Shown: positions 18,120 through 54,689 of the stretch, piece after piece | Position numbering within the stretch: position 1 is the stretch's first letter | Layout: every line of letters starts with the position of its first letter | Assembly: GCF_016745505.1 (NCBI RefSeq) | Contig: NZ_JAERUC010000206.1 | Location: 62,001 to 126,000 of the forward strand | Direction of reading: 5' to 3' | Origin: Streptomyces silvae | GTDB lineage: Bacteria > Actinomycetota > Actinomycetes > Streptomycetales > Streptomycetaceae | DNA length: 64,000 nt | Made by a program: the position numbers and the translations under genes | Notes under the pieces: model-generated | The model's database searches: none | What the model was told of the DNA's origin: nothing | What the model saw: the letters and a program-made list of their open reading frames with translations, nothing else

Positions 18120-18955
18120 GCGCCTGGCTGCCCGTCGCCCCCTGCACCCCGCGCGAGTGCGCACACCACGAGGGCGCCAGACGTCCGCCCGCGCACGCCG
18201 TGGCGCTGCTGACCGCCGGATGCGCCCTCACCTTCCTCGGGGTGCTCTGCGTGCCCGCCGTCCTGCTGCTGGGACCGGCCCACCGCGACCTGCTGATCCG
18301 CCGGTGGGCCCGTGCGGTGGTGCGGGCCTTCGGCGTACGCGTACGGGCCACCGGGCAGCCGGTGGAGCGGGTGCGGCCGCCGGCGGGCGAACTCGTCGTC
18401 GCCAACCATGTGTCCTGGCTGGACATCCCGCTGGTGGCCTCCGTGCTGCCCGCCCGGATGGTCGCCAAGAGCGAGATACGGAACTGGCCGCTCCTCGGAC
18501 CGCTCGCCGCGCTCGGCGGCACCCTGTTCATCGAGCGGGACCGGCTGAGGGCCCTCCCGCAGGCCGTGGGGGCCCTCGCCGGGGCGCTGGCCTCCGGGGC
18601 GCGGATCGCGGTGTTCCCGCAGGGCAGCACATGGTGCGGCCGGAGCGGCGGCGGCCCGTTCCGGCCCGCCGCCTTCCAGGCGGCGATCGACGCGGGATCG
18701 GCCGTCCGCCCCGTACGCATCACCTACCGGACGGCGACGGCGGACGCGGCGGGAGCCGCCGCGTTCGTCGGGGACGACCCGCTCGCCGCATCGCTGTGGC
18801 GCGTGGTGACCGCCGCCGGGCTCACCGCCGAGATCCGGGTCCTGCCCCCGGTCCACGCGGCGGGTGAGCCCGGCCGGCGGGCGCTGGCGCGGGCGGCTCA
18901 GTCCGCCGTCGCCAGCGACAGCGCGAACCTGCCCGCCGTGTCCGTCCACCACTGA
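18116..18955 (+). CDS. olsA: OlsA-like lyso-ornithine lipid O-acyltransferase (PlsC family)
   Basis: The 279-residue protein begins with a membrane segment (AVALLTAGCALTFLGVLCVPAVLLL). PlsC motifs follow: NHVSWLDIP (block I, HX4D), LGGTLFIERDR (block II), FPQGSTWC (block III) and VRPVRITY (block IV). Block III reads FPQGS where most relatives have FPEGT, losing the usual Glu. Coupling to olsB supports the second acylation of ornithine lipid. The last 58 bp overlap the 3' end of egtD on the other strand. Confidence 0.82.
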   Translation: MSAWLPVAPCTPRECAHHEGARRPPAHAVALLTAGCALTFLGVLCVPAVLLLGPAHRDLLIRRWARAVVRAFGVRVRATGQPVERVRPPAGELVVANHVSWLDIPLVASVLPARMVAKSEIRNWPLLGPLAALGGTLFIERDRLRALPQAVGALAGALASGARIAVFPQGSTWCGRSGGGPFRPAAFQAAIDAGSAVRPVRITYRTATADAAGAAAFVGDDPLAASLWRVVTAAGLTAEIRVLPPVHAAGEPGRRALARAAQSAVASDSANLPAVSVHH

Positions 18956-19860
18956 TCCAGCCGCAGGCCCGCCGCGGCCAGCTCGTCCCGGACCCTCTCC
19001 TCGCGAAACTTCGCGGAGATCTCCGTACGCAGATCCTCACCCTCCTCGAACTGCACCACCAGATCCAGCTCCCGGATCTTGACCGTCAGCGCACGGCGGG
19101 CCCGCAGCCGCATCTCGATCCACTCGTGGTCCGGGTCCCAGAGCGCCACATGGTCGAAGTCGTCCAGCGGGAAGTCCGCGCCCAGCTCACGGTTGACCAC
19201 CGCCAGCACGTTCTTGTCGAACGCGGCCGTCACGCCCGCAGCGTCGTCGTACGCCGCGACGAGGGTCGCCTTGTCCTTGACCAGGTCCGTGCCGAGCAGC
19301 AGCCCGTCCCCGGGTGCGAGCCGCGCCCGTACGGACCGGAGGAACTCCGCGCGCTCCGCCGGGAGCAGATTGCCCAGCGTCCCCCCGAGGAACGCCACCA
19401 GCCGCGGCCCGGGGCTCGCGGGCAGCTCCAGGACATGCGTGAAGTCGGCGACGAGCGCGTGCACGGAGAGCCCCGGACGCTCGGCCAGCAGCGCCTCGGC
19501 CGCGCCCACGAGCGCGCTCTCACTGACATCGACCGGTACGTACGTGTGCAGCTCCGGCAGCGCGTCCAGCAGGTGTTTCGTCTTCTCCGAGGAGCCCGAC
19601 CCCAGCTCGATCAGGGTGCGCGCCCCGGACGCGGCGGCGATCTCCCCGGCACGCGCGATCAGGATCTCCCGCTCCGCACGCGTCGGGTAGTACTCCTCCA
19701 GACGGGTGATCTCCTCGAACAGGTCGCTGCCCCGCGCGTCGTAGAACCACTTGGGCGGCAGCGTCTTGGGGTGCCGCGTCAGACCGCTGCGCACATCGGC
19801 GCGCAGCGCCGCGTCCGTCGCGTCCGCAGGCAGGGTGCGGGTCAGCTGGAAGGGACTCAC
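18898..19860 (-). CDS. egtD: L-histidine N-alpha-methyltransferase EgtD
   Basis: The 320-residue product starts at GTG 19860, which overlaps the egtC stop (GTGA). PPKWFYDARGSDLFEEITRLEEYYPTRAE is the hallmark N-terminal motif. LIELGSGSSEKTKHLLDAL binds SAM, and FLGGTLGNLLPAERAEFL and MRLRARRALTV are typical of the family. It trimethylates histidine to hercynine, the first step of ergothioneine synthesis, although it is the last gene of the operon. Confidence 0.95.
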   Translation of the reverse strand: MSPFQLTRTLPADATDAALRADVRSGLTRHPKTLPPKWFYDARGSDLFEEITRLEEYYPTRAEREILIARAGEIAAASGARTLIELGSGSSEKTKHLLDALPELHTYVPVDVSESALVGAAEALLAERPGLSVHALVADFTHVLELPASPGPRLVAFLGGTLGNLLPAERAEFLRSVRARLAPGDGLLLGTDLVKDKATLVAAYDDAAGVTAAFDKNVLAVVNRELGADFPLDDFDHVALWDPDHEWIEMRLRARRALTVKIRELDLVVQFEEGEDLRTEISAKFREERVRDELAAAGLRLDQWWTDTAGRFALSLATAD

Positions 19861-20612
19861 GCGGTGGGCTCCTTGAGCGGGGTCAGCAGGACATCGGTGC
19901 GCGTCGCGGCCAGCAGGGTGCGGTCCGGGACCTCGCGCCAGTACGGATCGTCGTCGTAGGGCTCCGAGGCCACCACCGTGCGGCGGCCCGGCTCGTGGAG
20001 ATACCAGAGGGAGTCGCCCCAGGTGGTCGCCACGATGGTGGAACCGTCGGTGAGCAGCAGATTGAGGCGTGAGCCGGGGGCGGCGGCACCGACGTCGCGA
20101 ACGGTCTCGGCGACCGCCCGGGCTATCTCGTCCCCCTGCGCCACCCGGTGGAGGACCAGCGCCCAGATCAGCGCCGAGTCGCTCCGCGCCGCCAGGGCCA
20201 GCATCCTCTCGGGCGGCAGGTCCCCGGCCAGCGGCGCCAGGGAGCCCGGCCAGCCGCGCACCGCGCCGTTGTGGCTGAACAGCAGGCGCCCCTCGGCGAA
20301 GGGGGCCGCCGCGGCGTCCCCGTCCGCCCCGGCGAACGTCGCGTCACGGACCGCGGCGAGCAGCGCCGTGCTGCGCACCACGCGGGCCAGATCGGCGAAG
20401 GTCTCGTCGCCCCAGACCGGCCCGGAACGGCGGTAGCGGCCGGGCACGGGGTCCCCGTCCGCGTACCAGCCGACCCCGAACCCGTCGGCGTTGACCGTGC
20501 CGTGCCTCTGGTGCCGGGGCTCCCAGGACTGGCGCACGAGTCCGTGAGCGGGGGAGACGAGCACCTCGCCCAGCGCCACCGGCGGCCCCAGGTAAGCGAT
20601 ATGACGGCACAT
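19857..20612 (-). CDS. egtC: EgtC, gamma-glutamyl-hercynylcysteine S-oxide hydrolase
   Basis: This is a class II glutamine-amidotransferase fold of 251 residues. MCRHIAYLG places the catalytic Cys at position 2 after Met removal. HGTVNADGFGVGWY and LLFSHNGAVRGWPG are the amidotransferase signatures. It removes the gamma-glutamyl group from the EgtB product. Its ATG shares a base with the egtB stop (TGATG), and its stop overlaps egtD, so egtB-C-D are translationally coupled. Confidence 0.95.
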   Translation of the reverse strand: MCRHIAYLGPPVALGEVLVSPAHGLVRQSWEPRHQRHGTVNADGFGVGWYADGDPVPGRYRRSGPVWGDETFADLARVVRSTALLAAVRDATFAGADGDAAAAPFAEGRLLFSHNGAVRGWPGSLAPLAGDLPPERMLALAARSDSALIWALVLHRVAQGDEIARAVAETVRDVGAAAPGSRLNLLLTDGSTIVATTWGDSLWYLHEPGRRTVVASEPYDDDPYWREVPDRTLLAATRTDVLLTPLKEPTA

Positions 20613-21952
20613 CAGGCATCCCTCGCCGTGCGGAATCCGGAGAAGATCTGACGCCGGACGGGAAGGTCCCAGTTACGGAAGGTGCCACGGCACGCCACCT
20701 GGTCCACGGCGAACGAACCACCGCGCAGCACCTTGTGGCCGGGCCCGAAGAAGACCTCCGAGTACTCCCGGTACGGGAACGCGACGAAGCCGGGATACGG
20801 CAGGAAGTCGCTCGACGTCCACTCCCACACGTCGCCGATCAGCTGGCCCGCCCCCGCGGGGGATCGGCCGGCCGGGTACGCCCCGGCGGCGGCGGGCCGC
20901 AGATGGCGCTGGCCCAGGTTGGCGTGCTCGGGGGCCGGGTCCTCGTCGCCCCACGGGTAGCGCAGCGAACGCCCCGACGCGGGGTCGTGGCGGGCCGCCT
21001 TCTCCCACTCCGGTTCCGTCGGCAGGCGCCGGCCCGCCCAGCGGGCGTACGCGTCCGCCTCGTACCAGCTGACGTGGAGCACCGGCTCGTCCGCCCGCAC
21101 GGGCTCGGTCACCCCGAAGCGCCGCCGGAGCCACTGTCCGGCGTCCCGGTGCCAGAACAGGGGCGCCGTCAGGTCGTGTTCGCGGATCATCGCCCAGCCC
21201 TCGGGCGCCCACCAGCACTCCTCGGTGTAGCCGCCGTCCTCGATGAAGCGCTGGTACGCACCGCAGGTGACCGGGGCGGTGTCGATGTGGAAGGCCGCCA
21301 CCTCGCGCCGGTGCGCGGGCCGTTCGTTGTCCAGTGCCCAGGGCTCCGTGGACGTACCCATGGTGAACGGGCCCCCGGGGACCAGGACTTCGGGCGGAAG
21401 GGTGACGGTGTCCGTGGGCTCGGGCGGTTCCGGGGCGCCGAGCACCGCGGGCCCCGAGCGCAGCTGATGGGTGATCAGCATCGTCTCGTCGTGCTGCTGT
21501 TCGTGCTGGGCGACCATGCCGAAGGCGAACCCCGCCCGCTCCAGCGGACGGCCCTCGCCGTGCAGCGGTGCGCCACCGAGGACGTCCAGGGCACGGCCGC
21601 GTACGTCGGCGGCGTACGTCCGTGCCTCGGCGGGAGCCAGCAGGGGCAGCGAGGGCCGGCTGGCCCGGGAGTGCTCGAAGGCGTCGTACAGCCCGTCGAT
21701 CTCGGGGCGCATCGCCTCGCGGCCGCCCACGGCCCGCAGCAGCCACAGCTCCTCCTGGTTCCCGATGTGCGCCAGGTCCCAGACCAGGGGCGACATCAGG
21801 GGGGAGTGCTGGGCGGTGAGGTCGTGGTCGTCGACGCTGTCGGTGAGCAGGGCGGTGCGCTCGCGCGCGGCGAGGAGCGCGGCCAGGGCACGTTCACGCA
21901 GCTTTTCCGCGTCGAATTCCGCGCCCGTGTGCGGAGCTGAGGTGTCGGTCAT
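20612..21952 (-). CDS. egtB: Ergothioneine sulfoxide synthase EgtB
   Basis: ATG 21952 (MTDTSAPHTGAEF) overlaps the egtA stop. The product is 446 aa. The N-terminal DinB-like domain has DLAHIGNQEELWLL and the iron-binding HX3HXE triad in MVAQHEQQHDETML. The C-terminal FGE-sulfatase domain includes FTMGTSTEPWALDNERPAH, RRLPTEPEWEKAARH and GGSFAVDQVACRGTFRNWD. The iron enzyme couples hercynine to gamma-glutamylcysteine with oxygen. The longer frame to 22012 is not needed. Confidence 0.95.
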   Translation of the reverse strand: MTDTSAPHTGAEFDAEKLRERALAALLAARERTALLTDSVDDHDLTAQHSPLMSPLVWDLAHIGNQEELWLLRAVGGREAMRPEIDGLYDAFEHSRASRPSLPLLAPAEARTYAADVRGRALDVLGGAPLHGEGRPLERAGFAFGMVAQHEQQHDETMLITHQLRSGPAVLGAPEPPEPTDTVTLPPEVLVPGGPFTMGTSTEPWALDNERPAHRREVAAFHIDTAPVTCGAYQRFIEDGGYTEECWWAPEGWAMIREHDLTAPLFWHRDAGQWLRRRFGVTEPVRADEPVLHVSWYEADAYARWAGRRLPTEPEWEKAARHDPASGRSLRYPWGDEDPAPEHANLGQRHLRPAAAGAYPAGRSPAGAGQLIGDVWEWTSSDFLPYPGFVAFPYREYSEVFFGPGHKVLRGGSFAVDQVACRGTFRNWDLPVRRQIFSGFRTARDA

Positions 21953-23247
21953 CGGACCAAGCCCTTTCCGTACGGCGCCCGGGCAGGGTCGGGAAAGTCG
22001 TCGGCCGGACATCGGCCCCGGGCCACATAGCGGTCATGGAAGGCGGCGACCGTCCCGATGACATGGTCGCTCGCCCCGATCCTGGGCAGCGCCTCCAGCG
22101 CCGTCGTGAAGCAGACCGCGGCCGCCGCCGCCAGCTCGGGATCGCTCAGCCCGTCACGGGCGGCGGCGGTCCAGAGCGGATTGCGGGGCGCGGCCGGCGG
22201 GCCCGCCGTCTCGGCCAGCGGTTTCACGGTGCGGTACACGGTTTCTGCTGCCTCCGGGTCGTCGAACAGAGCGGTGGTGACGGCCAGCGGAACGATCCAG
22301 CCGTCGGTGCCGGACTGGGCGTCGATCATGCGCAGTTCCAGGTGCCCGCGCGGGCGCACCGGCGGGAACAGCGTGGTGAGGTGGTAGTCGAGATCGGCCC
22401 GCACCGGTGGTCTCGGCCCACCGCCGCGGATCCAGTCGCGGAACGTCAGCCCCTCCGGCACGGCCCAGGGGCCGTCGTCGGCACGGACGCACATCACCGG
22501 TGTGGCGAGCACATGCGTGGCCCAGGCGTCACGGGGCGAGAGACGGCCCTGCGGCGCGAGCGTCCTGGCCGGATCGAGGTCGGCCCACAGCGACTGCCGG
22601 GTCGACCGCCAGCCGGTGCGCCGGCCCTGCCGGTACGGCGAATTGGCGAACGCGGCGACCAGCACCGCGCCCAGCAGGTGCCCGAGCTGCCAGCGCCGCC
22701 CGTAACCCAGCGGCCCCGGCTCCTCCTCGCCCGCGTCCAGGCAGACCTGCACGGACGCGGAGGTGCACATCATGGCGCGGCCTGCGGAACCCGACCGGTC
22801 CAGCGCCGCTTCCATGGCGTCGTAACGCGGCTCCCGGAGCAGGCGACGCGGCGGATGCCACGGGTCCACGCCCAGGCCGGCCAGTGTCAGCCCGGCCCGG
22901 CCGAGGGTGTCGCGTACGGAGGCCAGATCGGCGGCCGTGGCGTCCACGCACGCCATCATCGAGGGAGCGGGCTGGGAGCTGAGCTCCAGCTGGCCTCCTG
23001 GTTCGAAGGTCAGGGCGGCGTCCAGCTCCGTCGCGCGCACGGCGTCGGCCGCGGCGCGCAGACGGTCGTGCGGGACGGCGACCTCGGGATGTTCACGGTC
23101 GTGAATGAGCCATTCCAGCTCCACACCGACCGTCCGGGGCGGTCCCGTCTTGAAACATATGCCGCGGAGCAGATCCTCCGCCTCTTCCTCACCGAGCGGC
23201 GCCGCGTCGACGGGCGGGCCGTGCTGGCCGAGAGTGTCCGGGGGCAT
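21949..23247 (-). CDS. egtA: EgtA glutamate-cysteine ligase
   Basis: ATG 23247 (MPPDTLGQHGPPVD) has GAGGAGG 8 bp upstream; a much longer frame to 23673 lacks homology. The 432-residue product has TVGVELEWLIHDRE and FEPGGQLELSSQPAPS, the GCS2-type ATP-grasp substrate region. MMCTSASVQVCLDAG and RGHLELRMIDAQ are also characteristic. It makes gamma-glutamylcysteine for EgtB. It heads the egtABCD operon; egtE is absent here, as I recall for other Streptomyces. Confidence 0.93.
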   Translation of the reverse strand: MPPDTLGQHGPPVDAAPLGEEEAEDLLRGICFKTGPPRTVGVELEWLIHDREHPEVAVPHDRLRAAADAVRATELDAALTFEPGGQLELSSQPAPSMMACVDATAADLASVRDTLGRAGLTLAGLGVDPWHPPRRLLREPRYDAMEAALDRSGSAGRAMMCTSASVQVCLDAGEEEPGPLGYGRRWQLGHLLGAVLVAAFANSPYRQGRRTGWRSTRQSLWADLDPARTLAPQGRLSPRDAWATHVLATPVMCVRADDGPWAVPEGLTFRDWIRGGGPRPPVRADLDYHLTTLFPPVRPRGHLELRMIDAQSGTDGWIVPLAVTTALFDDPEAAETVYRTVKPLAETAGPPAAPRNPLWTAAARDGLSDPELAAAAAVCFTTALEALPRIGASDHVIGTVAAFHDRYVARGRCPADDFPDPARAPYGKGLVR

Positions 23248-23393
23248 GCTGGGCCTCCTCTTCGGGTGCTTCCTACCCACCCAAACCCTTACCGGGAGTT
23301 CGCACAAGGGTGCCCCTGGACGCGGAAAACCGGTTGCGTCCATGCCGTCACGGCGTCCAGCATGCCCCGTATGCACCACACGGGGGCGCGCCG

Positions 23394-24230
23394 ATGAGCG
23401 CACGACTGCGCGGCATCGCGCGAGAGACCGAGTCCGTCGTCCGGTCCGGGCGGTACCGCACGCCCGAGGGGCGCGAGGTGACGATCGGGCGCGCCCTGGC
23501 CACCGCCCTCTCCGGCACCCGGCTGTACGGCCCCGAGCCCGTCCACGTGGCGGCCCTGGACACCGACCGCAGTCCGGTCGTCGAGGTGACCGGCGAGACG
23601 AGCCTGCAGGCGGCACACCGGATGACGGGCGAGTCGGCGGCCAAGGTCGCCGTGCTGAACTACGCCTCCGCACGCAACCCCGGCGGCGGCTATCTGAACG
23701 GCGCGCAGGCCCAGGAGGAGTCCCTGTGCCGGGGCTCCGCGCTCCACGCCACGCTGCTGCGGGCCCCCGAGTTCTACGCCCACCACCGCGCCGAACGCAG
23801 CGCCTTCTACACCGACCGGGTCATCCACTCACCCGGCGTACCGGTCTTCCGCGACGACCGGGGGCGGCTGCTGGAATCCCCGTACACGGCCGGATTCCTC
23901 ACCTCGCCCGCGCCCAACGCCGGAGTCATCCGCAGCCGGGAGCCCGACCTGGTCCCGCGCATACCCGCCGCGCTGGCGAGCCGGGCCGAGCGGGTGCTCG
24001 AAGTGGCCGCCGTCCGCGGCTACCGGCGGCTCGTGCTGGGCGCGTGGGGCTGTGGCGTCTTCATGAACGACCCCGCCGAGGTGGCCGGCGCGTTCCGCGC
24101 CCTGCTGACCGGCGGCGGGCGGTTCGCCGGCCACTTCGAGCAGCTCGTCTTCGGCGTACCCGACCGGGATCCCGACTCCGCCGTCCGGGCGGCCTTCACC
24201 CGCGCGCTCGGCGGTCAGCTCCAGCTGTAG
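23394..24230 (+). CDS. Bacterial PARG-like protein (TIGR02452, DUF2263)
   Basis: This is a 278-residue macrodomain-type protein. NPGGGYLNGAQAQEESLCRGS at about residues 98-118 is the bacterial poly(ADP-ribose) glycohydrolase signature GGG-X6-8-QEE, with both catalytic glutamates. VAVLNYASARNPGGG, PVFRDDRGRLLESPYTAGFLTSPAPN and LVLGAWGCGVFMNDP complete the TIGR02452 pattern. It should hydrolyse ADP-ribose polymers or modified targets. ATG 23394 is preferred over an upstream GTG at 23310 because homology begins there. Its last 16 bp overlap the convergent MazF-like gene. Confidence 0.88.
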   Translation: MSARLRGIARETESVVRSGRYRTPEGREVTIGRALATALSGTRLYGPEPVHVAALDTDRSPVVEVTGETSLQAAHRMTGESAAKVAVLNYASARNPGGGYLNGAQAQEESLCRGSALHATLLRAPEFYAHHRAERSAFYTDRVIHSPGVPVFRDDRGRLLESPYTAGFLTSPAPNAGVIRSREPDLVPRIPAALASRAERVLEVAAVRGYRRLVLGAWGCGVFMNDPAEVAGAFRALLTGGGRFAGHFEQLVFGVPDRDPDSAVRAAFTRALGGQLQL

Positions 24231-36473: not shown

Positions 36474-36503
36474 GTCCAAGACCCGCTCCTCCTTTGTCCA
36501 TGG
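36474..36503 (+). promoter_or_regulatory. AraC-type operator upstream of GH101 (site A)
   Basis: Two GTCCA half-sites (36474-36478 and 36496-36500) lie 22 bp apart, the second inside TTTGTCCATGG. The element ends 65 bp before the GH101 start. The same bipartite element occurs in front of the GH35 gene (site B) with shared bases between the halves. Confidence 0.6.
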
Positions 36504-36568
36504 GCGCGTTCACCCCCGAGACGCGATCTTGGCGTGCACGGATGCCGTCCAGCGTCAGGAGAGCGCGC

Positions 36569-39500
36569 ATGCACGCACAAGATCCCGGACCGAGCCGCAG
36601 GACCGTGGTGGCCGCCACCGCGCTGGCGGGGGCGGGGCTGGCCCTCGCGGGTCCCGGTGTGGCGTTCGCGGCGCAGCGGGAGACCGTGCTGCGCTCCCGT
36701 GAGCTGGAGGTGCGCGTCGATCCGGACTTCCCGCGCATCGTCTCGTACACCGACCGCGCCGGCGGCGCCGTCCTGCACGGCCAGGAGGACCCGGTCACCT
36801 CGGTGCTGATCGACGGGACCGCCCGCACCCCGCGGGTGACCTCACGCTCCGGCCGTGACAGCGCCTCGTACACCCTCGCCTTCGACGGCGGTACCGAGAT
36901 CAGGGTCGAGATCCGTGTCACCGGCCGCCGGGTCGACTGGCGGGTCACAAGGATCACCGACACACCGGCCCTGCGCGTCGGCACGCTGCAGATCCCGTCG
37001 CTGGCCTTCCTGTCGGTACGGAGCGACCAGCCGGGCGCCGCGCTCCTCGCCGCCCGGATCCAGCTCGACAAGGCCACCAGCGGAGACACCCTGGTCGAGG
37101 TCACGCCCGGTACCGCGCCCGAGGCCGAGCCGACGGGCTGCGCCTACGCCGTCGTGGCGCACGACCGGCTCGGCGGCGCCGTCGAGACCAACACGACGTA
37201 CGACAAGCCCGACAGCACCCCCGGTGCCACCTGGGAGAACGGGCGGCTGTGGCGGCAGACCGTCAAGAAGGACGGCTACGTCAAGGCGCAGCTGGCCTGC
37301 GGGCAGTGGACGCACCGCGCCGCGACCGCGCCCGTGGACGCCACCGAGCCGCTCCCGTACGCCACCGTCATCGTCACCGGGGACCGCAACGGCGACGGGG
37401 TGGTGGACTGGCAGGACGCCGCCATCGCCTTCCGCGACATCATGGTCGACCCGCTGGGCGCCGACGAACAGCACCTGCGCGTCGTCCCGCACATCCCGTT
37501 CAACTTCGCCAGCCAGGCCACCAACCCGTTCCTCGCGACGCTCGACAACGTCAAGCGGATCTCCCTGGCGACGGACGGCCTGCGCCAGTACACCCTCCTC
37601 AAGGGCTACCAGTCGGAGGGTCACGACTCCGCCCACCCCGACTACGCGGGCAACCACAACGAGCGCGCGGGCGGCCTGAAGGACCTCAACACCCTCGTGC
37701 GCGAAGGACGCCGGTGGGGGAGCGACTTCGGCGTCCATGTGAACGCCACCGAGTCGTACCCCGTCGCGAACGCGTTCTCCGAGACACTCGTCGACAAGAA
37801 CAACGAACAGTGGGACTGGCTCGACCAGAGCTACCGCATCGACCAGCGCCGTGATCTCGTGTCCGGCGACATCATCAAGCGCTTCCAGGACCTCAGGGAC
37901 GAGACCGACCCCGCCCTGAACATGCTCTACATCGACGTGTTCCGCGAGTCGGGATGGACCTCCGACCGGCTCCAGCGTGCCCTGCGGGACCAGGGGTGGC
38001 AGGTCACCACCGAGTGGGGCCACGGCCTCGAACGCTCCTCCCTGTGGTCCCACTGGGCCACCGAGACCGACTACGGCGCCGACACGTCCCGGGGCATCAA
38101 CTCCCGGCTGATCCGCTTCGTCCGCAACCACCAGAAGGACGTCTTCGCCGACAAGTGGCCCACGCTCCTGGGCATCCCGCGCACCGGCAACTTCGAGGGC
38201 TGGGTCAACAAGACCGACTGGAACACCTTCTACGAGCAGATCTGGACCGACAGCCTGCCCGCCAAGTACCTCCAGGCGTACCCCGTCAGAACCTGGGGCG
38301 ACCACGAGATCACGTTCTTCGGCCCGACGAGGACGTCCGTGGACGACACCGAAGGCACCCGCCGCATCACCACGGACGGCCGGGTGGTGTACGAGGCGGG
38401 ACGCTACCTGCTGCCCTGGGAGCCGCGTGAGGCCACCGACCCCGACCGGCTCTACCACTACAACCCGGAGGGCGGCACCACCACCTGGCAGCTGCCGCGC
38501 GGCTGGGCCGGCCGGTCGAAGGTCGCGGTCTACCGGCTCACCGACCAGGGGCGGGCCGGCCTCCGTGAGGTGCCCGTCCGCTCCGGCCGGGTGACCATCG
38601 AGGCCGAGGCGAAGCAGCCGTACGTCGTCCACCGCACCCGGATGCCCGCGCACCGGGACCCGCAGTGGGGGCAGGCGACACCGCTGCACGACCCGGGCTT
38701 CAACTCCGGCTCCCTGGACGGCTGGAACGTCAGCGGGCCGGCGTCGGTGGAGCTGAGCGCCCTCGGAGACTACGAACTGGTCATCGGCGCCGGTGCGGCC
38801 GCCGCCGTCGGCCGGCGGCTCACGCGCCTGGCCCCGGGCACCTACGCCGCGTCCGTACAGGTGGAGGTGGGAGCGAAGGCGGGGGAGAGGCGCCGGGCCG
38901 CGCTCACCGTGCGCACCGCCGACGGAACCACCGCCGAGAACTGGACGGACTCCTCGACCGCCGTCAACCTCGTCGCGGCCGACCGCAAGCACGACACCCG
39001 CTTCCAGCGCCTGTTCACCTGGTTCACCGTGCCGGCCGGCTCGGGCCCCGTGGACCTCACCCTGCGGGCCGGGGCAGGGAGCGCCAGGGTCCGCTTCGAC
39101 AACGTGCGGATCGTGGCCGCGCAGCGCACCACCAAGGCCGGAACCGTGGCCTTCGAGGACTTCCAGCACGTGCCCCAGGGCTGGGGAGCCTTCGTCAAGG
39201 GCGACGCGGGCGGCTCGACCGACCCGCGCACCCACATCGCGCAGCGGCACGCCCCGTTCACCCAGTGCGGCTGGAACGGCAAGGCGATCGACGACATCGT
39301 CGACGGGACCCAGTCGCTCAAGTCGCGTGGTGAGAACACCGGACTCGTGTACCGCACCGTGCAGCACACCGTCCGCTTCGCACCGGGCAAGCGCTACCGG
39401 GTGACCTTCCGTTACGAGAACGAGAAGGCCGGCGAGTACGCCTGGATCACCGGTGTCGACGCACCGGCCTCCCGCGAACTCGACCGCAGGGACCTGCCCG

Positions 39501-39637
39501 TCGCCACCTCGCCGGCCGTGCTGAGCTACGAGTTCACCGCGCCCTCCGAGGGCGAGACCTGGGTCGGCCTGCGCAAGACCGGGGACGACGGCACGGCGGA
39601 GTTCGTCCTCGACTCCTTCGAGGTGCGCGAGGTGTGA
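36569..39637 (+). CDS. Secreted endo-alpha-N-acetylgalactosaminidase (GH101)
   Basis: ATG 36569 has AGGAG 8 bp upstream. The 1022-residue product has a Tat signal (SRRTVVAATALAGAGLALAG). A beta-sandwich domain comes first, then an EF-hand-like calcium loop DRNGDGVVDWQD. The catalytic barrel has GYQSEGHDSAHPDYAGNHNERAGG in pieces, MLYIDVF with the presumed nucleophile Asp456, and TTEWGHGLERSSLWSHW as the likely acid/base region. Galactose-binding-like C-terminal domains follow (PGFNSGSLDGWNV; EDFQHVPQGWGAF). GH101 releases Gal-beta-1,3-GalNAc from Ser/Thr of mucin-type glycoproteins. The family call is by overall pattern. It shares an operator with the GH35 gene. Confidence 0.85.
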   Translation: MHAQDPGPSRRTVVAATALAGAGLALAGPGVAFAAQRETVLRSRELEVRVDPDFPRIVSYTDRAGGAVLHGQEDPVTSVLIDGTARTPRVTSRSGRDSASYTLAFDGGTEIRVEIRVTGRRVDWRVTRITDTPALRVGTLQIPSLAFLSVRSDQPGAALLAARIQLDKATSGDTLVEVTPGTAPEAEPTGCAYAVVAHDRLGGAVETNTTYDKPDSTPGATWENGRLWRQTVKKDGYVKAQLACGQWTHRAATAPVDATEPLPYATVIVTGDRNGDGVVDWQDAAIAFRDIMVDPLGADEQHLRVVPHIPFNFASQATNPFLATLDNVKRISLATDGLRQYTLLKGYQSEGHDSAHPDYAGNHNERAGGLKDLNTLVREGRRWGSDFGVHVNATESYPVANAFSETLVDKNNEQWDWLDQSYRIDQRRDLVSGDIIKRFQDLRDETDPALNMLYIDVFRESGWTSDRLQRALRDQGWQVTTEWGHGLERSSLWSHWATETDYGADTSRGINSRLIRFVRNHQKDVFADKWPTLLGIPRTGNFEGWVNKTDWNTFYEQIWTDSLPAKYLQAYPVRTWGDHEITFFGPTRTSVDDTEGTRRITTDGRVVYEAGRYLLPWEPREATDPDRLYHYNPEGGTTTWQLPRGWAGRSKVAVYRLTDQGRAGLREVPVRSGRVTIEAEAKQPYVVHRTRMPAHRDPQWGQATPLHDPGFNSGSLDGWNVSGPASVELSALGDYELVIGAGAAAAVGRRLTRLAPGTYAASVQVEVGAKAGERRRAALTVRTADGTTAENWTDSSTAVNLVAADRKHDTRFQRLFTWFTVPAGSGPVDLTLRAGAGSARVRFDNVRIVAAQRTTKAGTVAFEDFQHVPQGWGAFVKGDAGGSTDPRTHIAQRHAPFTQCGWNGKAIDDIVDGTQSLKSRGENTGLVYRTVQHTVRFAPGKRYRVTFRYENEKAGEYAWITGVDAPASRELDRRDLPVATSPAVLSYEFTAPSEGETWVGLRKTGDDGTAEFVLDSFEVREV

Positions 39638-39677
39638 CGCACAGCTGACAGCGGCCGCCTGCGAGCGGTGACGACAC

Positions 39678-39709
39678 GGAGGGCCGGTCCTGATGAGGAC
39701 CGGCCCTCC
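39678..39709. terminator. Bidirectional terminator between GH101 and GH35
   Basis: A perfect 14-bp stem (GGAGGGCCGGTCCT, GATG loop, exact complement) lies between the convergent stops. Confidence 0.85.
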
Positions 39710-39727
39710 ACGGGTGGCACGCGTGAC

Positions 39728-41497
39728 TCAGCGGAGCGTCAGCAGGTGCTCGCCCGAGCGCTCCAGCTCCAGGACCCACACCTCGTTCACACCCTCCCGC
39801 AGCAGGGGCCCGGGAACGTACAGGGACTCCTGGGGGCCCACGTCCCAGTAACGGCCCAGGCAGAAGCCGTTCACCCAGACGAAGCCCCGCTCCCACCCCG
39901 GCAGGGCGATCCCGGCGTCCCCCGCACCGCGTACGTCGAAGGTGCCCCGGAACAGGCCCGTGGCGCCCGGCTCAGGGGAACGGAACGGCACCTTCCCGAG
40001 TGCGTCCTCGCCCTCGAACGCGTCCAGGGCCAGCCCACGCGCCCATACGCCGTGCAGATACTGCCGCTCGTGCAGGATGCCGCCCGTGATCCCCTTGGGC
40101 TCGGCGAGCCGCGGCCCGTAGTTGACCCGGCCCAGCGACTCCACCCACAGCTCCACCGAGGCAGGCCCCGCGAGGGGCTCCTTCAGCGCCGTGTACGAGC
40201 CGGCCTCGGCGGGGCCGCCGCCCAGCACCCCCGCCCGCACCCCGTCGACGTACACCACCGCCCGGTCCCGCAGCCCGGTCACGCCCAGCGGATACGGCTG
40301 ACGCGGCCCCGGCACCTCCACCCGGTAGCGGACCAGCCCCCGGTCCACCCCCAGCTCCTCGAACGTCGGCGGCATCGCCCACTCGGCCTCCGGTCCGCCC
40401 AGCGTGTCCATCACCTCGCCCAGCGGCGCCCACTCCACGAGCTCCGCGCGCACCGGACCGGCCAGCGCGGCGGGCTGCGCCGGGACGTCCGGCAGCGGGG
40501 TGCCGTCCTCCCGGTGGAGCGCCAGGACGTCCCGGAAGAGCCAGAACTTGTCGGTGGGGCGGCCGTACTCGTCGACGGGCGCGTCGTAGTCGTACGACGT
40601 CACCGTCGGCTGGAGCTCCCCGCCGTGCAGGTCCCCGGCGCGGTTCGCCCCCGACCAGCCGCCGAAGTTCGTACCGCCGTGCGCCATGTAGATGTTCACG
40701 GATGCGCCGCACGCGAGGATCTCCTGCAACGCCGCAGCCGCGTCGGCGGGGTGCCGCACCACCGGCTCCGCACCCCAGTGCCCGAACCAGCCGCACCAGA
40801 ACTCCATGCACATCAGCGGCCCGTCCGGACGGTGCCGCCGCAGCGTCGCGAAGCCCTCCCGGGCCCCCGAGCCGAAGTTCGCCGTGGCCAGCACGCCCGG
40901 CACCGAACCGCCGGTCAGCATGTGATCCTCCGGCCCGTCGGACGTGAACAGCGGCACCGTCACACCGAGCTCACGCAACAGCTCCGTGAGCCGGCCCAGA
41001 TACACCTGGTCGGAGCCGTAACTGCCGTACTCGTTCTCGACCTGCACCATGACCACCGGGCCGCCCCGGTCGATCTGCCGCTCCACCACCTGCGGGAGCA
41101 GCCGCCGGAACCAGCGTTCCACCTGCCCGAGGTACTCCGCGTCCCGGGTCCTGACCCGGGTGCCCAGCGCCCCCGTCAGCCAGTGCGGCAGACCGCCGTT
41201 CTCCCACTCCGCGCAGATGTACGGCCCCGGCCGCACGATCGCCCAGAGCCCCGCGGCCGCCGCCGCGTCCAGGAAACGCCCCAGCGCCTCGACATCCCGG
41301 TGGTGTCCCTGCCGCGGCTCGTGCAGGTTCCACGGGACGTACGTCTCCACACAGTTCAGCCCCATGGCACGCAGCATCGCCAGCCGGTGCCCCCACCGGC
41401 CTTCGTGCACCCGGAAATAGTGCATCGCCCCCGACAGCAGCCGTACGGGCCGCCCGTCCAGTTCGAAATCCCGCTCGCCCACCGTGAATTCAGCCAC
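39728..41497 (-). CDS. Beta-galactosidase, GH35 family, cytoplasmic
   Basis: The 589-residue protein has no signal peptide. GTG 41497 (VAEFTVGERDFELDGRPVRLLSGAMHYFRV) is chosen because the N-terminal strand starts there; an upstream in-frame GTG is possible. LRAMGLNCVETYVPWNLHEP is the GH35 barrel start. GGPVVMVQVENEYGSYG is the acid/base signature (Glu in ENE) and MCMEFWCGWFGHWG carries the nucleophile Glu. Jelly-roll domains follow. It removes terminal beta-galactose inside the cell, for example from Gal-GalNAc. The next divergent gene encodes its AraC regulator. Confidence 0.92.
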   Translation of the reverse strand: MAEFTVGERDFELDGRPVRLLSGAMHYFRVHEGRWGHRLAMLRAMGLNCVETYVPWNLHEPRQGHHRDVEALGRFLDAAAAAGLWAIVRPGPYICAEWENGGLPHWLTGALGTRVRTRDAEYLGQVERWFRRLLPQVVERQIDRGGPVVMVQVENEYGSYGSDQVYLGRLTELLRELGVTVPLFTSDGPEDHMLTGGSVPGVLATANFGSGAREGFATLRRHRPDGPLMCMEFWCGWFGHWGAEPVVRHPADAAAALQEILACGASVNIYMAHGGTNFGGWSGANRAGDLHGGELQPTVTSYDYDAPVDEYGRPTDKFWLFRDVLALHREDGTPLPDVPAQPAALAGPVRAELVEWAPLGEVMDTLGGPEAEWAMPPTFEELGVDRGLVRYRVEVPGPRQPYPLGVTGLRDRAVVYVDGVRAGVLGGGPAEAGSYTALKEPLAGPASVELWVESLGRVNYGPRLAEPKGITGGILHERQYLHGVWARGLALDAFEGEDALGKVPFRSPEPGATGLFRGTFDVRGAGDAGIALPGWERGFVWVNGFCLGRYWDVGPQESLYVPGPLLREGVNEVWVLELERSGEHLLTLR

Positions 41498-41560
41498 GGT
41501 CCCCGCCTCTCGTTCCACGCCCCCACCGTCCCTCACCTCACCCCCTGGCGGCGGAGCGGT

Positions 41561-41589
41561 CCATGGACAAAGATCAGCGCTGGTTGGAC
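41561..41589 (-). promoter_or_regulatory. AraC-type operator upstream of GH35 (site B)
   Basis: On the minus strand GTCCA half-sites (41589-41585 and 41568-41564) are 21 bp apart, the second in TTTGTCCATGG. The element ends 63 bp before the GH35 GTG. The ATG of a longer AraC frame (41563) lies inside this element. Confidence 0.6.
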
Positions 41590-41631
41590 ACAACGGAACG
41601 CCGACGGCCGGGCGGGGAGGAACGGAAGCGG

Positions 41632-42519
41632 ATGTACCACACCTGGATGCGCTATTTCACGCCGAGCCCCACGCACCACAAGCTGGGTCTGGTCTGCCTC
41701 GGGGTCGGCCTCCAGCACGGCACGCTGCCCACGGTGGGGCCCCGTACGCTCGACCACCATGTCGCCGTCGTCATCAGCGCGGGCAGCGGCTGGTACCGCT
41801 GCCCCGACGGCACGGTCACGCCCGTGACCGCCCCCGCGCTGATCTGGCTCGTGCCGGGCGTCCCGCACCACTACGGCCCCGATCCGGCCACCGGGTGGGA
41901 CGAGAGCTTCGTCGACTTCACCGGCCCGGCGACCGCCCCGTACACCGAACTCGGTTATATCGAGCCCGACCGGCCGGTCGTCCCCCTCGCCGACACCGCG
42001 TCCCCCCGGGCCGCCGTGAGCCGCATCGCCCGCGCCGCCCGCCTGGGCAATCCCCTCCTGGAGGTCGAGACCGGCGCCGCCGTGCACGAACTGCTCGTCG
42101 CCCTGCGCCGGTCCCGCGCCGACGTCGGAGCCGACGGGGACCCCGTGCTCAACGCCCTCGCCCGCGACGCCTTCCAGCCGCTGTCCGTCGCCGAGCACGC
42201 CTCCCGCCACGGGATGACGCCCGCCGAGCTGCGCACCGCCGTACGCCGCGTCGCCGGATGCAGCCCCAAGGACTACCTCCTCGGCATCCGGCTCGGCCGC
42301 GCCAAGGAGCTCCTCGCCGGCACCGAGCTCCCGGTGTCCGCCGTGGCCCGCCGCGTCGGCTACGACGACCCCGCCTACTTCTCCCGCCTCTTCACCCGGC
42401 GGGTCGGCTTGGCGCCCGTACGTTTCCGGGACCAGCAGGGCAGGGCGGTCCCCGGCGGCTGGAGCAACCGGATCCCGGACCCCGGGCACCCTCCGACCAT
42501 CGTCAACCCGCCGGTGTGA
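41632..42519 (+). CDS. AraC-family regulator of the galactoside genes
   Basis: The 295-residue protein starts at MYHTWMRYFTPSPTHHKLGLVCLGVG behind GGAGGAACGGAAG. The longer frame from 41563 begins inside the operator and is rejected. The N-terminal cupin has HHVAVVISAGSGWYRCPDG and PALIWLVPGVPHHYGPD, and binds a sugar. The C-terminal double HTH has LSVAEHASRHGMTPAELRTAVRRVAGCSPKDYLLGIRLGRAKELL in pieces and VSAVARRVGYDDPAYFSRLFTRRVGLAPVRFR. It diverges from GH35. Both the GH35 and GH101 promoters carry the same bipartite element, so it is the likely activator of both. Confidence 0.9.
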   Translation: MYHTWMRYFTPSPTHHKLGLVCLGVGLQHGTLPTVGPRTLDHHVAVVISAGSGWYRCPDGTVTPVTAPALIWLVPGVPHHYGPDPATGWDESFVDFTGPATAPYTELGYIEPDRPVVPLADTASPRAAVSRIARAARLGNPLLEVETGAAVHELLVALRRSRADVGADGDPVLNALARDAFQPLSVAEHASRHGMTPAELRTAVRRVAGCSPKDYLLGIRLGRAKELLAGTELPVSAVARRVGYDDPAYFSRLFTRRVGLAPVRFRDQQGRAVPGGWSNRIPDPGHPPTIVNPPV

Positions 42520-46282: not shown

Positions 46283-50248
<3,966 letters not shown>

Positions 50249-51553: not shown

Positions 51554-52414
51554 TCAGCCCTTGGTGGCGCCGGAGGTCAGGCCGGCCACCAGGTACTTCT
51601 GTCCGAGGACGGCGGCCAGGACGACGGGGACGGTGATGAGCGTCGCCGCTGCCATCAGGCCGCCCCAGTCGGTGCTCGCGTACGAGATGAAGTTGAAGAG
51701 GGTCACCGGCACCGTCTGGGTGCGGTCGTCGGCGAAGATCAGCGCGAACATGAAGTTGTTCCAGCTGAAGACGAAGGCGAGCAGCGACGCGGTCGCCGTC
51801 CCGGGGGCGGCCAGCGGCAGAGCGATGCGCCAGAAGGCCCCGAAGGCGCTGAGTCCGTCGGTGCGCGCCGCTTCCTCCAGTTCGACCGGCAGGCCGGCGA
51901 AGAAGCTGATCATGATCCACATGATGAGCGGGACGGAGACGAACATCTGGCTGAGGATCAGCACGGTGTAGGAGCCGACGAGACCCATCTGCGCGAACAG
52001 GTAGTACCAGGGGACGAGCAGGGAGATCGCCGGAACGATGCGCGCCACCAGGATCAGCGATCCCGTCCGGTGCATGTCGAACCGTCCGACCGCCCAGGCG
52101 GCGGGCACCGCGATGACGGCGGAGAGCACGGTCGAGACCACCCCGACCAGCAGGGAGTTGCCCATGGACCGGACGATCTGCCCGGCCTCGACGATGCTGC
52201 GGAAGTTCTCCAGGGTGGGGCTGAACCACAGCCCCACCGACGGGTCGGTCACCTGGACGTTGGTCTTGAAGGCGGCGGCGAACATCCACACCAGGGGCAG
52301 CGCGAAGACGAGCGTCACGACGGCGATGGCGATTCCGCGCAGCCACGACCGGACCGCGCGCCGGCGCAGGTGCCGGGCGACGGGGACGGGCACGGGGGTG
52401 ACGGTGGCAGTCAT
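51554..52414 (-). CDS. ABC sugar importer permease (MalG type)
   Basis: The 286-residue protein starts at ATG 52414, overlapping the previous stop. Six membrane segments begin with [23 protein letters not shown]. The EAA loop is [29 protein letters not shown]. It forms the inner pore with the MalF-type partner encoded upstream. No ATPase is in the operon, so an external shared ATPase (MsiK-like) is expected. Confidence 0.92.
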
Positions 52415-53370
52415 GCGGTCTTCCTTCCGCCCCGGCGGCGCAGCAGCACCACGACGCCGATGATGAAGAGCGTGAACAGGACCAGGACGGCGGCGGCCAG
52501 GCCGTACTCCTGGTAGTCGAAGGTCAGCCCGTAGGCGTAGACGTTCAGGGTCTCCACCTCGAAGTCCGAGCCGCCGCCCGCACCCTTGGTGGCGTAGAGG
52601 ATGTCGAAGGTCTTGAGGGCGTCCACCGCGCGCAGGACCAGGGCGGTGGCGAGCGTCGGTCCGAGCATGGGGAGCACGACGTGCCGGAACCGCTGCCAGC
52701 CGTTCGCCCCGTCGACGCGCGCCGCCTCCTCGGGCTCCTCGGGCAGGGTGGTCAGCCCGGCGAGCAGCAGCAACGTCATCATGGGCGTCCACTGCCATAC
52801 GTCGATGAGCATCAGGGTCGGCAGCGACTGGCTGACCGAGCCGAGGAACTCCTGGCGGGGCAGGCCCACTCCGGCGAGCAGGTGGTTGGCTATGCCGTTG
52901 GTGGGGTCGAGGATCAGCAGCCAGAGGATGCCGATCGCCACCGGCGTGGTGAGCAACGGGATGATCAGGACCGTACGCACCCACCGCATGCCGCGGAACG
53001 GCTTGCGCATGAGCATCGCGAGGGCCAGTCCGAGCACCGTCTCCAGGACCACCGCCCCGACCGTGAAGACCAGCGTGCGCCGGGCGGCGGGCCAGAACCT
53101 GCGGGTGTCGCCGAGGGCGTCGGCGAAGTTCTGCAGTCCGACGTGGGCCTTGCCCGCGTTCACCGCGCCGAAGGCGTCGGTCAGGCTGAGGTTGACGGTG
53201 TAGACCAGCGGAAAGACGATCATCAGGCCGACGAACAGCAGCGCCGGGGCGAGCATCGTCCACTTCAGCCGCCGGTTGGCCTGCTCGAAAGTACGGGGGC
53301 GGCGCGCGGGGGCCGGTCCCGTGCCCGGCGCGGCTGCCGCGCGGGCGGGGGAGACCTCGGTGGTGGACAT
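52411..53370 (-). CDS. ABC sugar importer permease (MalF type)
   Basis: The 319-residue protein starts at ATG 53370, whose A is the last base of the binding-protein stop. An N-terminal Pro/Ala-rich tail precedes membrane segments such as WTMLAPALLFVGLMIVFPLVYTVNLS. The EAA loop is PEEPEEAARVDGANGWQRFRHVVLPMLGP. Start and stop overlaps with both neighbours indicate strict co-translation. Confidence 0.92.
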   Translation of the reverse strand: MSTTEVSPARAAAAPGTGPAPARRPRTFEQANRRLKWTMLAPALLFVGLMIVFPLVYTVNLSLTDAFGAVNAGKAHVGLQNFADALGDTRRFWPAARRTLVFTVGAVVLETVLGLALAMLMRKPFRGMRWVRTVLIIPLLTTPVAIGILWLLILDPTNGIANHLLAGVGLPRQEFLGSVSQSLPTLMLIDVWQWTPMMTLLLLAGLTTLPEEPEEAARVDGANGWQRFRHVVLPMLGPTLATALVLRAVDALKTFDILYATKGAGGGSDFEVETLNVYAYGLTFDYQEYGLAAAVLVLFTLFIIGVVVLLRRRGGRKTA

Positions 53371-54689
53371 CAGGACTCCTTGTGGCGGTTGTCGCGGACG
53401 AGGAAATCGGCGAACTCCGCGTCGGCGTCACGAGCCACCGGTCGTACGTCGTTGCCGAGGATGCCCGCGACCAGGGGCCGTCCGACGATGTCCCTGGCCC
53501 GGCCGACCTGGAGGACCCGGGGCCGGTCGTAGCCGAGACCCCGCTCCGCGTTGAGCCGCATGGCCTCGGCGAGATCGGGCGGGAAGGAGGCCAAGGACTT
53601 CGGGTCGGACCACACCGAGCTACGGGCGCCGGGGATGCCGCCCTTCTGGAGCTCGGCGGTCATCTCGGTGCCGGCGGCCCACTTGACGAACTCCCAGGCG
53701 TCGTCGCGCAGCAGGGAGAACTTGCTGATGCCGAGGCTCCAGGACGGGATGTTGTGCGGCCGGGCGCCGGCCGGTCCGGCCGGGAAGGGCGCGAAGCCGA
53801 CGGACTCGCGGACGGTCGACACCTTCGGGTCGAGGAAGCTGCTGTAGATGGCGTCGGCGTCGATGTAGAAGGCGGCCTTGCCCTGCGCGAAGATCGGCAT
53901 GGCCTGTTCGAGGCTCATGTTGGTGGCGCCGGGCGGCCCCGTCCTCGCCAGGAGCCCGCCGTAGTACGCGTACGCGGCGAGGGCCTCCGGGGTGCCGATG
54001 CCGGACCTGCCCCGCACGACGAAGTCCCCGCCGTGGGAGTACAGGAAGCTCGACCACTGGGACACGGCGCCGCTGCGCTGGCCCCGGCCGACGAACCCGT
54101 AGAAGCCCTTCTTCTTGTCGGTGAGCTCCTGGGCGGCCGCCATCAGCTCCTCCAGGGTGCCCGGCGGTCCGCCGAGGTCCTGCACCAGGTCCTTGCGGTA
54201 GTACAGCGCCGGACGCTCGGTCACCACGGGGACGCTCAGCACCTGGCCCGCCGTCACGGAGGCGTCGCGCGGGGCCTTCTGGAAATCCTGCCAGGCGAAG
54301 TCCTCGTCCTGGGTGACGCGGTCGCTCAGGTCGGCCAGCCAGCCGTTGTGGGCGAAGAGCAGCTGCTCCTGGAGCGCGCGGACCATCATGACGTCCACAT
54401 CGGTGCCCGAGGCGTTGAGCTTCACGTTGTAGCTGCTCGCCAGCTGGTCCGCGGTGAGCAGGGTCATGGAGACCCGCCGGCCGATGCGCTCCTCGAACTC
54501 CTTCGTACGGCGCCGGATCGCCTGGGACCACACATGGTTGATCGCCATGATCCGCAACGGGGTGTCCGCGGAGGGCCGTCCGCCCCCGGTCGTACACGCG
54601 CTGAGCGCCCCCAACCCGGCGGCTCCCGCGACTCCCGCCGCCAGCCTGCCGAAGGAGCGCCGGTTGAGGAGCTGGCTGCTCGTGGACAT
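53370..54689 (-). CDS. ABC sugar-binding lipoprotein, Tat-exported
   Basis: The 439-residue protein starts MSTSSQLLNRRSFGRLAAG, a Tat motif (NRRSFGR). The lipobox LSAC precedes TTGGG, so the protein is a lipoprotein. The family 1 SBP fold is visible in LRIMAINHVWSQAIRRRTKEFEE, DVMMVRALQEQLLFAHNGWLADLSDRV, PVVTERPALYYRKDL and AWEFVKWAAGTEMTAELQ. It delivers a sugar or sugar acid to the two permeases. A FadR-type operator sits 84 bp upstream of the start. Confidence 0.9.
   Translation of the reverse strand: MSTSSQLLNRRSFGRLAAGVAGAAGLGALSACTTGGGRPSADTPLRIMAINHVWSQAIRRRTKEFEERIGRRVSMTLLTADQLASSYNVKLNASGTDVDVMMVRALQEQLLFAHNGWLADLSDRVTQDEDFAWQDFQKAPRDASVTAGQVLSVPVVTERPALYYRKDLVQDLGGPPGTLEELMAAAQELTDKKKGFYGFVGRGQRSGAVSQWSSFLYSHGGDFVVRGRSGIGTPEALAAYAYYGGLLARTGPPGATNMSLEQAMPIFAQGKAAFYIDADAIYSSFLDPKVSTVRESVGFAPFPAGPAGARPHNIPSWSLGISKFSLLRDDAWEFVKWAAGTEMTAELQKGGIPGARSSVWSDPKSLASFPPDLAEAMRLNAERGLGYDRPRVLQVGRARDIVGRPLVAGILGNDVRPVARDADAEFADFLVRDNRHKES

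Follow-up and report, generated by a model that had tools for sequence, protein, structure and literature searches.

A single AraC-type regulator and a shared operator unite a GH101 endo-alpha-N-acetylgalactosaminidase gene and a GH35 beta-galactosidase gene of Streptomyces silvae in what sequence comparison indicates to be a well-supported regulon. We consider it likely that this regulator, here called AraC, activates both genes through GTCCA direct repeats for use of the disaccharide Gal-beta-1,3-GalNAc of animal-type glycoproteins. A sequence-only reading of this DNA had proposed one AraC-type regulator and a shared operator over the two enzymes, a proposal now strengthened by conservation of the element, by its co-occurrence with the AraC gene and by further sites ahead of an MFS gene. 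Comparison among genomes reveals the element and how well it is conserved, as well as its link to the AraC gene and its fixed promoter geometry; DNA binding by AraC, activation rather than repression, the ligand, the substrate and its import are steps that we infer. As predicted here, a soil genus would have a regulon dedicated to the core-1 disaccharide of mucin type and conserved in many of its genomes, although use of this sugar is a trait mostly discussed for gut and respiratory bacteria.

An operator shared by two glycosidase genes

The features concerned lie in the window, meaning the whole stretch of 64,000 nucleotides that was analysed:

36474-36503, forward strand: operator site A, GTCCA-N14-TTTGTCCATGG, half-sites 22 bp apart, upstream of GH101; from sequence and conservation
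36525-36530, forward strand: -10-like hexamer GATCTT (nAnnnT), at a conserved distance from site A
36569-39637, forward strand: GH101 endo-alpha-N-acetylgalactosaminidase, 1022 aa (PF12905, E 4e-125, and other GH101 domains)
39728-41497, reverse strand: GH35 beta-galactosidase, BgaC-like, 589 aa (PF01301, E 2e-105)
41534-41539, reverse strand: GAGGTG, a weak -10-like hexamer that follows site B, with the A at the conserved position and the T off by one
41561-41589, reverse strand: operator site B, GTCCA-N13-TTTGTCCATGGAC, half-sites 21 bp apart, in the GH35/AraC intergenic region; from sequence and conservation
41632-42519, forward strand: AraC-type regulator, 295 aa, divergent from GH35 (PF02311, PF12833, PF00165)

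The GH101 protein has a signal-peptide-like, twin-arginine N-terminus and aligns with pneumococcal (SpGH101) and bifidobacterial enzymes of solved structure. In the alignment to 5a55, the Asp of YIDVF (about D456) and the Glu of EWGHG (about E482) are conserved, and these align with the described GH101 catalytic Asp/Glu pair. By inspection GH35 lacks a signal peptide. Its best PDB matches are 4mad, 8h25 and 4e8c, of which the first and last are the BgaC enzymes of Bacillus circulans and S. pneumoniae. Its EFWCGW and VNYG motifs align with EFWDGW and VNYG in 4e8c, and hold the Trp/Trp/Tyr subsite residues of BgaC-type enzymes. Homology and the missing GH35 signal peptide are compatible with the earlier placement of GH101 outside the cell and GH35 in the cytoplasm, and with the two-compartment pathway predicted from it. 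AraC itself joins an N-terminal cupin-like ligand-binding domain (PF02311, E 4e-8, residues 30-144) to a C-terminal double HTH (PF12833, E 7.5e-20, residues 190-267). Elsewhere in the window, an ergothioneine egtA-egtD-like set (GCS2, FGE-sulfatase/DinB, class-II amidotransferase, histidine methyltransferase) occupies 18898-23673.

Site A comprises GTCCA at 36474-36478 and TTTGTCCATGG at 36493-36503 on the forward strand, with 22 bp between the starts of its GTCCA blocks and 65 bp from the element to the GH101 ATG (36569). On the reverse strand, site B has GTCCA at 41589-41585 and TTTGTCCATGG at 41571-41561, a start-to-start distance of 21 bp, and 63 bp to the GH35 GTG (41497). It contains the palindrome GTCCATGGAC and lies 42 bp ahead of the AraC start (41632). 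The bipartite element described earlier ahead of both enzyme genes is thereby reproduced in coordinates and distances, and the site assigned to the divergent region is indeed found between GH35 and the AraC gene. One correction concerns the search gap of N16/17: the actual distance from GTCCA to TTTGTCCATGG is N14 at site A and N13 at site B, and N16/17 instead measures what separates one GTCCA block from the other. A search with N15-18 before TTTGTCCATG gave zero matches.

The window holds exactly two perfect copies of TTTGTCCATGG. Genome-wide (7.96 Mb, 207 contigs), TCCA-N13/14-TTTGTCCAT also matches exactly twice, at sites A and B, and the reversed control gives 0. Scans of the same genome allowing 3 mismatches revealed no convincing extra target among the matches listed, where coding background was dominant (about 100 control hits for N13); the closest other N14 match among those listed, with 1 mismatch on contig 200, falls within a coding region.

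Beyond S. silvae, we surveyed 393 Streptomyces genomes, calling AraC orthologs at E <= 1e-110 and the element at its exact pattern. GTCCA-N13/14-TTTGTCCATG is present in 192 genomes, against 1 for the reversed control, and an AraC ortholog in 223. The two coincide in 187 genomes, with the element only in 5, AraC only in 36 and neither in 165 (Fisher p ~1e-66; the genomes share ancestry, so the counts are not independent events and p values in this survey overstate the independent number). Degenerate forms were seen in those examined of the 36 genomes with AraC and no exact pattern. The proposal that a genome search would find the site upstream of orthologous GH101 and GH35 genes has thus held up, the element being present across Streptomyces and tracking the AraC gene.

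At finer scale, 80 loci of close AraC orthologs, all from Streptomyces, carry a B-type site between GH35 and AraC in 79 cases; in the 80th the sequence in between has changed, but the two GTCCA blocks, GTCCATGGACC and the spacing of 21 bp are retained. An A-type site stands upstream of every intact GH101 copy in these loci (24/24), usually with about 90-100 bp from site start to gene, and is still present in the 6 loci where GH101 lies inverted beyond AraC. Genes of the same GH101 class without the exact string have near forms of the site, mostly TTTGTCCATAGG; in a second GH101 class (43-46% identical) the element is usually absent. The two blocks are invariant and the spacer and flanks variable, the N14 and N13 forms each hold their own consensus, and B sites have GATC ahead of the proximal block and GGAC behind it in 99/99 aligned copies.

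Predicted substrate and scope of the regulon

Enzyme homology is what points to core-1 Gal-beta-1,3-GalNAc as the predicted substrate, GH35 being similar to BgaC-type beta-1,3-galactosidases. GH101 enzymes release Gal-beta-1,3-GalNAc. In the proposed scheme, AraC would bind a sugar in its cupin domain, with galacto-N-biose or a monosaccharide contained in it as the likeliest ligand, and promote production of secreted GH101, which would free Gal-beta-1,3-GalNAc from core-1 O-glycoproteins. The disaccharide would be imported by a transporter and then split by intracellular GH35. BgaC/GnbG-type enzymes cleave Gal-beta-1,3-HexNAc (PMC5583593, PMC5018945), with pneumococcal BgaC acting on terminal Gal-beta-1,3-GlcNAc (PMC5018945). 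Because the GH101 and BgaC/GnbG-type activities fit, the simplest interpretation is that the core-1 disaccharide is handled by an outside-inside pathway.

A tenable, if less than probable, alternative accepts the operator and AraC control as real and makes the substrate a broader set of beta-1,3-galactosides, such as lacto-N-biose or arabinogalactan fragments, with GH101 added in some lineages. GH101 is absent from 81 of the 223 AraC-positive genomes, the majority of the 80 AraC loci contain GH35 without GH101, and substrates differ among GH35 enzymes, all of which would suit a broader diet. Yet BgaC-type GH35 is described as beta-1,3-specific (PMC5018945), and where GH35 has been lost AraC and its site persist with GH101 alone, so that the AraC signal fits GH101 too. 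We prefer core-1 use as a predicted function, but not as the sole one, since GH101 is missing from most GH35-AraC loci. Likewise, given the 81 genomes without GH101, the several lineages that lost GH35 and kept GH101 and AraC, and an MFS gene as third target, the label "O-glycan regulon" does not cover the general case. In two AraC-positive genomes (L012 in G081 and L203 in G290) an N13-type element stands ahead of the gene for a secreted protein of right-handed beta-helix type (PF13229), which may be another target.

For the importer, the own-genome mismatch scans gave no further site among the matches listed. An ABC sugar transporter at 52414-54689 in the window, with genes for a GntR regulator, a GH2 beta-galactosidase and an enolase-superfamily protein as neighbours, was considered and left out of the regulon because no operator copy lies near it, a perfect copy being absent there. 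The MFS gene was also rejected as importer in S. silvae, where it is absent (best homolog 52% identical); its product is exporter-like, the best family models being the efflux-type Cmx/CmrA and AraJ. A search for a GH112 phosphorylase found no match in the genome, a weak negative given that the control search was likewise empty. The GH2 beta-galactosidase near the ABC sugar transporter, at 46295-50248 in the window, is of LacZ type, contains an insert resembling LamG, begins in a twin-arginine-like manner and has no operator copy.

Several known systems resemble parts of this arrangement. Bifidobacterium GNB/LNB utilization (GH101 EngBF, ABC transporter, GH112) likewise couples extracellular GH101 release to intracellular breakdown, but its inner step is a GH112 phosphorylase, where here it would be GH35. 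The S. pneumoniae aga operon (BgaC GH35, PTS, AgaS) also employs a BgaC-type GH35 in Gal-beta-1,3-HexNAc use, and BgaC is induced with GalNAc genes; AgaR, though, is a repressor of the GntR family, and the one operon that it targets has no GH101 gene (PMC5018945). The S. silvae regulator is by contrast AraC-type, a single protein would control both enzymes, and no PTS gene is in the regulon. In the Lactobacillus gnb system an intracellular glycoside hydrolase, GnbG, similarly hydrolyses imported lacto-/galacto-N-biose, although import is by a PTS, the regulator is another and the regulon has no secreted GH101; elsewhere the inner step is performed by an LnbABC transporter together with a phosphorylase (PMC5583593). 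In the open-licence papers searched, we found no earlier report of the operator or of AraC-GH101-GH35 co-regulation.

Promoter geometry and the direction of control

The hexamer nAnnnT begins 22 or 23 bases past the last T of TTTGTCCAT in 57/57 GH101 and 27/27 MFS promoters, and lies at the same fixed distance in 97% of GH35 promoters (n = 110); site B in the window is among the roughly 3% of GH35 promoters without an exact nAnnnT. The hexamer looks like a -10 box accompanied by a poor -35 located at the proximal half-site. That the spacing from operator to -10-like element is constant in about 97-100% of promoters points towards class-II activation. Class-II activation by E. coli AraC and RhaS has the same layout, with a poor -35 at the proximal half-site. 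In our proposal, AraC (41632-42519) would bind the two GTCCA half-sites in direct repeat at both promoters and activate both. Spaced 21 or 22 bp apart, or two helical turns, the half-sites would present one DNA face, and the proximal one (TTTGTCCATGG) would abut or overlap the -35 position about 24 bp ahead of the weak -10 (nAnnnT). Class-II activators such as AraC and RhaS are arranged in this way where they recruit RNA polymerase to promoters whose -35 is poor. Many MFS promoters and some GH35 promoters likely yield leaderless transcripts, since the start codon follows so close behind the -10. Two half-sites and one -10 provide exact base-level targets for tests.

AraC-family operators have been described that consist of direct repeats with a period of 21 bp (PMC3870299), and in the related genomes a direct-repeat operator of about 21-bp period is conserved upstream of the targets, as in an AraC-type regulon. 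E. coli AraC at araI1-I2, RhaS and the predicted AraC-type RhaR regulators (PMC3870299) likewise pair a cupin and double-HTH regulator, encoded beside its targets, with direct half-sites 21-22 bp apart, the proximal one at -35. In contrast to those systems, the half-site here is GTCCA(TGG), the host an actinomycete and the targets GH101 and GH35.

It is improbable that AraC binds the element only to repress, or only to regulate itself. The proximal half-site is near enough to the core promoter for a steric block, and the 42 bp between site B and the AraC start, together with the palindrome GTCCATGGAC inside the site, could suit autoregulation. The weak -35, the fixed -10 distance and the direct-repeat form nevertheless make up a class-II activator pattern. 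Moreover, where GH35 has been lost or broken (L234/G367, L259/G727, L325/G312), site B has decayed while AraC, GH101 and site A are retained; site B is consequently not needed for AraC expression. Activation of both enzyme genes remains our preferred reading.

The probable reader of the element, and its changing targets

Since site B adjoins the AraC gene, their co-occurrence could be mere linkage, and another transcription factor might read an element that the AraC gene merely adjoins. A chromosomally unlinked MFS gene speaks against this. In a large-genome Streptomyces clade, this gene carries CGTCCAAGCG...CTTTGTCCATGGAC, and among genomes that hold it the element is present in its promoter in 26 of 37 with AraC against 0 of 13 without (p 7e-6). 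The MFS loci with the operator (L003, L016, L018, L020, L021, L029, L209, L268-L312) encode AraJ/Cmx-like proteins and occur only where an AraC ortholog is present.

AraC homologs adjoining other genes retain the same half-sites. For example, 74%-identical homologs beside GH101 with GH35 absent (L257, L258) keep the GTCCA repeats; a 62% homolog beside GH35 (L264) keeps the repeat with ATCCA as its distal block; and 52% and 40% homologs beside a PhyH dioxygenase gene (L265, L266) keep GTCCA repeats as well. A PhyH-type dioxygenase gene is divergent from a distant AraC homolog (40-52%) at L250/L265 (G570), L251 (G431) and L256/L266 (G731), and in these three genomes the two genes are separated by a region with direct repeats of GTCCA type, spaced 22-23 bp. 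Further distant homologs (L247, L248, L249, L252, L253) had no GTCCA repeat within the stretch inspected. The second recognition-helix region (~GYDDPAYFSRLFTRRVG) is nearly invariant among site-keeping homologs. With GTCCA direct repeats kept by AraC homologs ahead of differing genes, AraC emerges as the common factor.

For most of the five genomes with the element only, an AraC copy that is broken up, masked or divergent accounts for the exception: the gene is split into two reading pieces in G119, the contig stops soon after the site in G277, a divergent AraC adjoins the site in G224, and a 66% homolog adjoining a run of N is found in G071; the fifth genome, G376, is 55% complete. We accordingly regard a different reader of the element as very unlikely. 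That the similarity reflects chance, or a recently duplicated functionless promoter, is scarcely credible, for although S. silvae has just two short elements, the blocks are conserved genus-wide while spacer and flanks vary, the N14 and N13 forms hold their own consensus, and the pattern occurs in 192 genomes against 1 for the reversed control.

Around this operator, the targets themselves change. Diverged GH101-AraC pairs keep the operator at L207 (G363), L208 (G071), L257 and L258, with GH101 identities of about 45% and about 70%; they probably represent the same gene pair in distinct lineages. Operator-like sites at L204 and L205 have no clear target and may be due to chance. We see an even balance of likelihood in the broader idea that this AraC subfamily and its GTCCA operator form a portable unit attached to different actinomycete genes, appearing in Streptomyces as a genus-wide O-glycan/galacto-N-biose regulon of gains and losses. 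The roster of genes so attached is as finely poised: it would comprise GH35, three GH101 clades, the AraJ/Cmx-like MFS and the secreted beta-helix protein, with the PhyH dioxygenase in other genera. Such gains and losses of targets around a constant operator offer a natural series for regulon assembly and dismantling, in which L081, L084 and L263 retain an orphan site A after deletion of GH101.
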